Shown in pieces: positions 41 to 25,363 of a stretch of 32,051 nucleotides of DNA (positions are counted from its first letter, which is position 1; each line of letters opens with the position of its first letter). This DNA comes from a virus. The notes under the pieces are model-generated. The model searched no databases, was not told the origin of the DNA, and worked only from the letters and a program-made list of their open reading frames with translations. A program made the translations under genes and the position numbers. The stretch is from IMG/VR virus record IMGVR_UViG_3300021425_000107, positions 1 through 32,051 of that record. One strand, written 5' to 3'.

Positions 41-766
41 TTACCTTATTTTCGCTGTTGCAAGCGCCCTCTTCATAGCTGACTGTAGCCGTTTGGGATA
101 TATTGTACGACCATACAGCGCCATGCGGTCATCAAACCTAAGCCTTGGCCTATATGTAATATTGCGATCAATGAAGTTAAACATCTTCTGAATACTCCTT
201 GAACCTTCTTTTCGTTTGTATATACCAGCCTTGCGACCAAAAGATTTTGGCGAAAAGTATACATCTTTCCCACGCTTAGGTCTTCCGCGTTTAGGGCTAT
301 TAGCTGCAGGATCTTGCTGCACTTGCATAGCTGCCATAATTTTATTACGCTCGCCAGGTGAGATTACACCTGACTTAATGCGTGGAAAATTACTGGTTGG
401 TGTCATGTGTCTAAAGACACCAGCATATGGCAGCCTGTATTGAAATGCTTTCTCTATCCCTGTCTGTGGTCTAGCTCCGCCATCCTCTTGCACTTCAAGG
501 TAATGCTTACCTCGTTGCATATCCTTTCTGCGAAGCATGACTGATGTATCACCTTTGCGTGCAGGTTTGTAAAAGAATGCGTTGCGAGTAAATGCTACAG
601 GTCTACTAAAAATCTTGTTCATGTCCTGCTTATTCTTAGCAATCATTGTTTTTGCAGTATTGTTTAGCGCCAATGAGATTGCAAATGGCATTTGCTTAGC
701 CACCATGTTCGACATCTTAGCATTCACAATTGAAGCATTCGACTTGAATTTAAAATCCATCACCAT
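41..766 (-). CDS. gpZ-like minor tail / neck protein
   Basis: A 241-aa basic protein. Its N-terminal half has the pattern of the lambda gpZ-like family: residues about 25-45 hold a run ending in ALNNTAK, then a 'SRPVAFTRNAF' block, and a 'YLEVQEDGGARP' block lies near residues 89-100. The C-terminal half is rich in Lys and Arg. In lambda, gpZ acts at the head-proximal end of the tail during joining. The ATG at 766 follows a GGAGG (774-778) with 7-nt spacing. The gene stands alone downstream of a promoter and terminator, instead of between the FII-like and U-like genes where lambda Z lies. Family recognition is from sequence pattern and memory; a generic neck protein is the alternative. Confidence 0.7.
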   Translation of the reverse strand: MVMDFKFKSNASIVNAKMSNMVAKQMPFAISLALNNTAKTMIAKNKQDMNKIFSRPVAFTRNAFFYKPARKGDTSVMLRRKDMQRGKHYLEVQEDGGARPQTGIEKAFQYRLPYAGVFRHMTPTSNFPRIKSGVISPGERNKIMAAMQVQQDPAANSPKRGRPKRGKDVYFSPKSFGRKAGIYKRKEGSRSIQKMFNFIDRNITYRPRLRFDDRMALYGRTIYPKRLQSAMKRALATAKIR

Positions 767-807: not shown

Positions 808-836
808 AAAAAACCCCCACCTTTAAAAGGCAGGGG
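808..836 (-). terminator. Intrinsic terminator before the gpZ-like gene
   Basis: On the minus strand an 8-bp stem, CCCCUGCC pairing with GGUGGGGG (two G-U pairs), closes a short U/A loop and is followed directly by six U residues (808-813). It sits 42 nt upstream of the gpZ-like start and downstream of both the early operon and the promoter at 903-931. It can therefore end early-operon read-through and also any RNA started at that promoter. Confidence 0.85.
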
Positions 837-897
837 TAAGGTGGGCGATCTCGGGAGGATCACTCTGGGAGGAGGTATATGGAGCAGCATGTACCTC
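808..897 (-). ncRNA. Putative anti-Shine-Dalgarno small RNA or late leader RNA
   Basis: The predicted transcript of about 90 nt starts 6-7 nt after a TAATAA -10 box and ends at an intrinsic terminator. It folds by eye into three hairpins. Hairpin 1 (872-897) has a GAGGUA/UACCUC stem, an A-C mismatch, an inner AUG/CAU stem and a hexaloop. Hairpin 2 (845-863) has a GUGAUC/GAUCGC stem with loop CUCCCGA. Hairpin 3 is the terminator. CCUCCUCCC (867-875) lies across the end of hairpin 1 and the next single strand, and CUCCC recurs in the loop of hairpin 2. This CCUCCUCCC motif names the CcsR/Cuckoo small RNAs of Alphaproteobacteria. A lambda-6S-like leader of the late operon is the alternative, and both could be true. 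Confidence 0.55.
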
Positions 898-902
898 ACA
901 CA

Positions 903-931
903 TTATTACAGCATCATATTGTGTATGTAAA
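903..931 (-). promoter_or_regulatory. Sigma70-like promoter, leftward
   Basis: On the minus strand, TTTACA (926-931) and TAATAA (903-908) are separated by exactly 17 bp. This is a near-consensus promoter reading toward the small RNA, the terminator and the gpZ-like gene. The predicted start is near 896-897. If the genome is circular, this is the best-placed promoter for the whole late operon. Confidence 0.6.
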
Positions 932-941
932 GAGTAATTAA

Positions 942-1112
942 TCAATATATCTTCCCTTGCTGCAGCTCATACTTTCTCACCAAGATTAAACGTTTTTCTT
1001 CCTCACTCCATTTAGGCAAATCAACCTTCAATACAGATCTGCGATTAGCAAATCCTTCAAGCTCATCAAGTGATAAAATAGTCTTTAATTTCTCTTCTAA
1101 AGTCACGGACAT
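942..1112 (-). CDS. Small charged protein of unknown function (56 aa)
   Basis: The frame runs from ATG at 1112 to TGA at 942 and encodes 56 residues beginning MSVTLEEKLK and ending ELQQGKIY. It is preceded by AGGGGA. The protein is rich in Glu, Lys and Leu and probably helical, with no cysteines and no membrane segment. It is the last gene of the leftward early operon, after the primase-helicase, and its leader is filled with the TGTCC/GGACA repeats. That placement would suit a protein that binds those repeats or whose expression they control, but nothing in the sequence shows DNA binding. I do not recognise the family. Confidence 0.6.
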   Translation of the reverse strand: MSVTLEEKLKTILSLDELEGFANRRSVLKVDLPKWSEEEKRLILVRKYELQQGKIY

Positions 1113-8668: not shown

Positions 8669-8817
8669 GCGATTGTAAATCATGTGATGGTACGGGCCTT
8701 GTTGAGCGCACTAGTTTTAATCAAAATGCTGAAAAAGCTTCGTGGACTTCCTGGACAGAACCATGTGAATATTGCGCAGATGAAGATGATTATGATTGGC
8801 GTGTGGAGGAAGATTAA
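8665..8817 (+). CDS. Small zinc-knuckle protein (50 aa)
   Basis: The frame starts at ATG 8665 (ATGA overlap) and ends with TAA 8815-8817. It encodes 50 residues with two CxxC pairs, C4-x2-C7 (CKSC followed by DGTG) and C34-x2-C37 (CEYC), and then a very acidic tail (DEDDYDWRVEED). The CxxCxGxG-like first half recalls a DnaJ-type zinc finger cut down to one site. It probably binds a single zinc. The partner and role are unknown. Confidence 0.65.
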   Translation: MSDCKSCDGTGLVERTSFNQNAEKASWTSWTEPCEYCADEDDYDWRVEED

Positions 8818-25310: not shown

Positions 25311-25330
25311 CTTTCGCCCCTTATTGGAAA

Positions 25331-25350
25331 GGAGGGCCAAGTGGCCCTCC
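25331..25350 (-). terminator. Stem-loop after the capsid gene
   Basis: A perfect palindrome, GGAGGGCC / GGCCCTCC with a 4-nt loop, begins 14 nt after the capsid stop. On the minus strand it is followed by TTTCC. It is probably a partial terminator or a 3'-stabilising hairpin that lets capsid mRNA exceed downstream tail mRNA. Confidence 0.6.
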
Positions 25351-25363
25351 CAAGTTAGCACTC

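Follow-up and report, generated by a model that had tools for sequence, protein, structure and literature searches.

The DNA analysed here, a virus record of 32,051 bases (the window), belongs to a siphophage that infects marine Roseobacter-type bacteria. Near its beginning, an intergenic region separates the end of a replication cluster (SSB, primase-helicase and a 55-aa ORF) from a minor tail gene, and the gene order from the latter toward TerS/TerL is also seen in L022. The features of this part of the window are as follows:

945..1112, minus strand: 55-aa ORF, upstream of the RNA, last gene of the replication cluster
903..931, minus strand: putative promoter, with -35 TTTACA at 931-926, a 17-nt spacer and -10 TAATAA at 908-903
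808..898, minus strand: predicted small RNA of about 90 nt with a stable fold, invariant from the -10 box to the terminator
872..897, minus strand: hairpin 1, GAGGUAC...AUACCUC (stem GAGGUA/UACCUC)
867..875, minus strand: anti-Shine-Dalgarno (aSD) motif CCUCCUCCC, extended to the 13-mer ACCUCCUCCCAGA
845..863, minus strand: hairpin 2, GUGAUC[CUCCCGA]GAUCGC, with the loop CUCCCGA at 851-857
808..837, minus strand: intrinsic terminator, with a hairpin at 813-837, ACCCCUGCC...GGUGGGGGU, followed by U6
41..766, minus strand: minor tail gene (phrog_1924), downstream of the RNA, opening the late cluster toward TerS/TerL

A promoter, three stem-loops, the motif, a second CUCCC in a 7-nt loop and a U6 terminator had been reported in the preliminary description, and each of them was recovered where it had been placed, on the minus strand. 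Reading the plus strand as CsrB-like, on account of its GGA motifs, was rejected, since promoter and terminator both lie on the minus strand. With AATAAT as an alternative -10 box and an 18-nt spacer, the promoter matches the consensus at 10 of 12 positions and is TG-extended. As promoter-like sites in the scanned region are not above chance (36 found vs 41 in shuffles), the promoter call is based on conservation: both hexamers are unchanged in six contigs, and substitutions of the sister phages near the promoter are confined to the spacer (920, 921 and 923). The RNA would start at about 898, and its 3' end is placed at the U tract. The fold has a predicted energy of -31.8 kcal/mol (z = -2.95), with one of 200 shuffles being equally stable. 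The 3' arm of hairpin 1 overlaps the beginning of the aSD motif, such that in the predicted fold the opening nucleotides of CCUCCUCCC are paired while the remainder (CUCCC) is open. The loop of hairpin 2 is part of a second C-rich site, UCCUCCC, and the two CUCCC segments are predicted to be unpaired, with means of 0.82 and 0.87. CCUCCUCCC occurs once in the whole window, where 0.11 copies are expected. Of the 16 terminator-like sites listed for the first 16 kb, the terminator ranks first and has the longest stem.

The neighbouring region at 1107-1260, beside the primase gene, contains GGACA repeats of iteron type together with inverted repeats that surround AACCCTAAGGGTT, and is, judging from these repeats, a candidate replication origin with clade-specific iterons. 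Relatives retain an AACCCT-AGGGTT core of this region with different repeats, namely TGTAGT in CRP-811/823, TATAC in CRP-821/831, CTGGAA in CRP-406 and CGGACA in L117.

Five sister contigs share 93-95% identity across the intergenic region. Between the -10 box and the terminator, none of 101 sites is variable among the six contigs, whereas the flanks have 386 variable sites out of 2831 (P 4.9e-7), and no other stretch of the aligned 3 kb stays invariant for as long as 804-919 (116 nt). At the level of the sequence, the RNA block is thus under strong purifying selection.

More diverged phages, including L110, L113-115, L116, L117-119, CRP-406 and the L067/L070/L072/L057 group, have an RNA at the orthologous position, in which the stem sequences are rewritten yet still pair, while a C-rich loop, ranging from UCCC to UCCUCCCAGAC, is retained together with the terminator and its elements CCCCUGCC/GGUGGGGG; in L111 and L112 the minor tail gene is present and the RNA is absent. 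For 25 contigs the loop and the terminator were set by the search pattern, so that their invariance is by construction and the stems alone were free to vary, whereas L057, L067, L070 and L072 were found without this pattern. The loop of hairpin 2 contains UCCC(U/G)A in the orthologues and is closed by stems that differ but pair, such as GAGCAC[AAUCCCUAA]GUGCUC in L110, AGGGC[CAUCCCUA]GCCCU in L113 and GAGG[UCCUCCCUAGU]CCUC in L116. RNAalifold applied to four orthologues recovers this hairpin unaided, with double-sided changes. Compensatory changes had been anticipated in two stems, and they are present in the 845-863 stem, but the 872-897 stem of hairpin 1 is not column-conserved in the diverged orthologues. 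In the L067 group the stems around UCCUCCCAGAC read AGCGC/GCGCU, AGAGC/GCUCU, AGCAU/AUGCU and AGUAUG/CAUGCU. RNAalifold recovers the terminator alone from the alignment of this group, since the register of the aSD stem shifts from member to member, and the evidence for the stem comes from manual reading and from a stem test. In this test, shuffling the flanks of TCCC loops in 18 representatives gave weaker enclosing stems than the actual ones (Fisher P 1.4e-8, combined over lineages that are not fully independent); several lineages, including L116, L117, CRP-406, L072 and the CHUG phages, were not significant individually.

The expectation that the motif itself would be conserved in relatives held in part. 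L110, L113 and L116, the nearest of the diverged orthologues, have lost the 9-mer CCUCCUCCC, and their aSD sequence is weaker (UCCC to CUCCUC): L110 has CUCCUCUCCC and L113 has CUCCUCUCUC in its place, and L116 retains the second site only. The UCCC loop is nevertheless kept in these phages, and the 9-mer itself is retained in L067 and L072. L203, L179 and the window RNA are all matched by a covariance model built from the L067 group alone, the last of them with 26.1 bits (E 7.6e-5 over 538 kb). The reverse direction is weak, with a model of the window type reaching L226 and L072 only at E 0.03-0.08.

Similar aSD RNAs are found at other loci in other phages. In the Roseobacter isolates CRP-811/821/823/831 (CHUG phages) the RNA occupies the space between primase and SSB, on the opposite strand, and in L179 and L201 it is placed where the replication cluster ends, facing a convergent gene. 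That the locus is more than a chance arrangement is borne out by the block being invariant in six contigs and by an excess of aSD 6-mers ahead of the terminators of related phages. Among terminators from contigs picked by protein homology, CCTCCC is present in 9 of 83 clusters, compared with a mean of 1.74 in dinucleotide shuffles, and 0 of 400 shuffles were as high. The complementary controls GGGAG and GGAGG were at expectation upstream of terminators. Neither the DNA nor the RNA of the locus had a match in the phages and plasmids searched. L027, which has an orthologous RNA at 8682, carries a second aSD hairpin at about 1095-1165, GTGGC[TCCTCCCA]GCCAC, inside a long-range stem and with no T run, as does L029. 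In L204 (524-598, minus strand), a contig with capsid genes, a tRNA gene lies directly downstream of the aSD RNA. In the main text of the paper on the CRP isolates the words "small RNA", "ncRNA" and "intergenic" are absent (PMC12629253), and no published phage-encoded aSD sRNA was found among the papers searched in open-licence PubMed Central.

Regulators of the aSD sRNA class are widespread in Alphaproteobacteria. The window RNA is built like those of Rhodobacterales (CcsR/cuckoo, alpha-r14, SorX and mmgR), but by test it is a member of none of them; an Rfam search of the window at gathering thresholds gave no match. With CcsR1-4/cuckoo (CIN1), which occur in Rhodobacterales and other Alphaproteobacteria, it has in common aSD sequences in hairpins, an intrinsic terminator, the host order and ACCUCCUCCCAGA, which is identical in Rhodobacterales loops. 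In the predicted fold the aSD sequence lies in an unpaired region, as is characteristic of CcsR/cuckoo. However, CcsR/cuckoo are marked by repeated CCUCCUCCC hairpins, at least two of them with identical loops, whereas in the window RNA there is a single 9-mer, part of which lies in a stem, and a single 7-mer, UCCUCCC, at a loop. Furthermore, CcsR/cuckoo are processed from the 3'-UTR of a DUF1127 mRNA, while the window RNA is phage-borne with its own putative promoter and has no DUF1127 gene directly upstream: the 55-aa ORF at this position has no Pfam match (E up to 0.1) and no PHROGs match, and a link to DUF1127 was rejected on the Pfam result. For CcsR, interaction with Hfq and maturation by RNase E have been described (PMC8307010, PMC8625941), and both CcsR and SorX are 3'-UTR-derived (PMC8625941). 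Alpha-r14 (NfeR1, RF02344) resembles the window RNA in its unpaired CCUCCUCCC, its freely varying stems and its terminator, and its aSD motifs silence ntrB by covering the ntrB ribosome-binding site (PMC10746234). By contrast, alpha-r14 has three hairpins, each bearing the full 9-mer (PMC10746234), and the window RNA reaches 17.0 bits vs a gathering cut-off of 58.8 with a model that does detect the host arrays. SorX (RF02784), SorY (RF02651) and mmgR/alpha-r8 (RF00519) share a layout of hairpin, CUCCCU segment and terminator; the window RNA has no match to these up to E 10, and L203 scores 29.2 bits against SorX (cut-off 46.6) and L179 23.7 bits against mmgR (cut-off 41). The best sub-threshold match of the window RNA is anti-hemB of Burkholderia (RF02837; 21.1 bits vs a cut-off of 49.5), with which it shares CUCCUCCC and a terminator, but the match disrupts the model's first stem.

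On the host side, CIN1 arrays in genomes of the order containing G137, which would be Rhodobacterales since the 16S is 94-95% identical to Sulfitobacter, consist of DUF1127-like genes, recognised by eye, and, after them, as many as 8-9 hairpins whose loops carry CCUCCUCCC. Some of these loops read ACCUCCUCCCAGA, identical to the 13-mer of the window; 48 of 196 genomes from the order contain this sequence, and the reversed control is clearly less frequent. Rhodobacterales-type arrays of about 8-9 tandem aSD hairpins are also seen in L272, L273, L275 and L278, where the last hairpin doubles as terminator. No RNA of the phage type was recognised in 293 genomes of the order containing G237, and the L067-type model gave weak, mostly terminator-type matches in 299 Pseudomonadota genomes and the 293 genomes of the order, of which those inspected had no aSD hairpin like the phage one. 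A pattern of aSD and CCCCUGCC terminator produced 14 matches in 84,980 bacterial genomes, none of them in Rhodobacterales, which were set aside as apparent tRNA or coding-end coincidences.

The RNA had initially been described as CcsR/cuckoo-like. That it is itself a CcsR/cuckoo RNA is not supported, in view of the sub-threshold scores with alpha-r14 and every other Rfam family, the single 9-mer and the lack of DUF1127 upstream. That it is a phage aSD RNA working like CcsR/cuckoo is, on the other hand, well supported by its conservation, by the re-paired stems around kept C-rich loops, by the recurrence in many Roseobacter-type phages and by the 13-nt ACCUCCUCCCAGA in common with CIN1 loops. 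By analogy with these systems, masking of Shine-Dalgarno sequences in trans is the most likely action of the phage RNA, and we consider it probable, with some room for doubt, that the locus is a stand-alone, trans-acting aSD sRNA gene masking ribosome-binding sites mainly of host mRNAs. A sigma-70-type promoter would drive transcription of about 90 nt, up to the intrinsic terminator of the RNA itself, and the product would expose one or two C-rich segments, CUCCC following hairpin 1 and UCCUCCC at the loop of hairpin 2, copying the anti-Shine-Dalgarno tail of 16S rRNA. These segments would pair in trans with the purine-rich ribosome-binding sites of selected mRNAs and thereby block initiation, probably assisted by Hfq via the U tail of the terminator, as with the aSD sRNAs of the host order, and the RNA would serve host take-over during infection. 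No phage gene start has extended complementarity to the RNA, so that host mRNAs are the likelier main targets. Among the self-targets considered in the phage, the longest exact complement is 10 nt, and the best duplex was rejected, being a terminator-like hairpin after the capsid gene and no start site. This hairpin, GGAGGGCC-ACTT-GGCCCTCC followed by TTTCC, is located between the capsid gene and the next ORF (25320-25355, minus strand), and its calculated pairing with the RNA loop is strong.

Short terminated transcripts upstream of phage late genes, as predicted for the window, are known as the late-leader RNAs StxS and lambda 6S, and we know of no aSD hairpin in them. A late-operon leader like lambda pR'-tR' would likewise consist of a promoter and a short terminated transcript followed by the late genes, with a phage antiterminator allowing passage and the short RNA being a by-product or, as StxS, a secondary regulator. 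The RNA does lie immediately upstream of the minor tail gene opening the late cluster in the window, in CRP-406 and in the L067 group. This placement is not kept in all phages compared, and the convergent next gene in L179 and L201 and the opposite strand in CRP-811/821/823/831 argue against a pure late-leader role. Since, moreover, the invariance extends beyond the terminator to the entire RNA, and an aSD loop and stem unnecessary for a leader are maintained across lineages, we regard this explanation as rather unlikely. Many of the same observations weigh on the idea that the element only terminates the replication cluster, as a 3' UTR whose spacer is C-rich by composition. The RNA is often found at the end of that cluster, and CcsR and SorX themselves have a 3'-UTR origin (PMC8625941), but the invariance of RNA and -10 box, an aSD enrichment that exceeds dinucleotide shuffles and the stand-alone opposite-strand copies in the CHUG phages make it improbable.

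The loop of 13 nt shared with the CIN1 arrays of Rhodobacterales would also fit a mimic or sponge that competes with host aSD sRNAs of the CcsR and SorX type for Hfq or targets and so alters host stress regulation, and phage sponges such as AgvB and AsxR exist (PMC12559287, PMC12197685). The motif has the same sense as in the host sRNAs, which speaks for imitation and not for pairing and leaves competition for Hfq or targets as the mode of action; we think this unlikely. Control in cis, in which the aSD segment would pair with the Shine-Dalgarno sequence of the minor tail gene in read-through transcripts, could draw on a GGAGG shortly before the start of this gene and a duplex energy of -11 kcal/mol. 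Yet extended complementarity is absent, several other gene starts pair equally well or better, and the RNA is placed elsewhere in relatives, which renders such control very improbable.

If the proposed masking of ribosome-binding sites in trans is true, a single gene of 90 nt would let a 30-kb phage disturb many host messages with no protein. More tentatively, and at somewhat less than an even chance, marine Roseobacter-type phages may have repeatedly acquired or evolved sRNAs that mimic the ribosomal tail, at several positions and in several lineages, as a general tool for redirecting host translation, which would constitute a viral branch of aSD sRNAs. Two isolates were purified with their hosts, CRP-406 with FZCC0037 and CRP-822 with FZCC0197 (PMC12629253), and such host-paired phages make the idea of a viral aSD sRNA directly testable.
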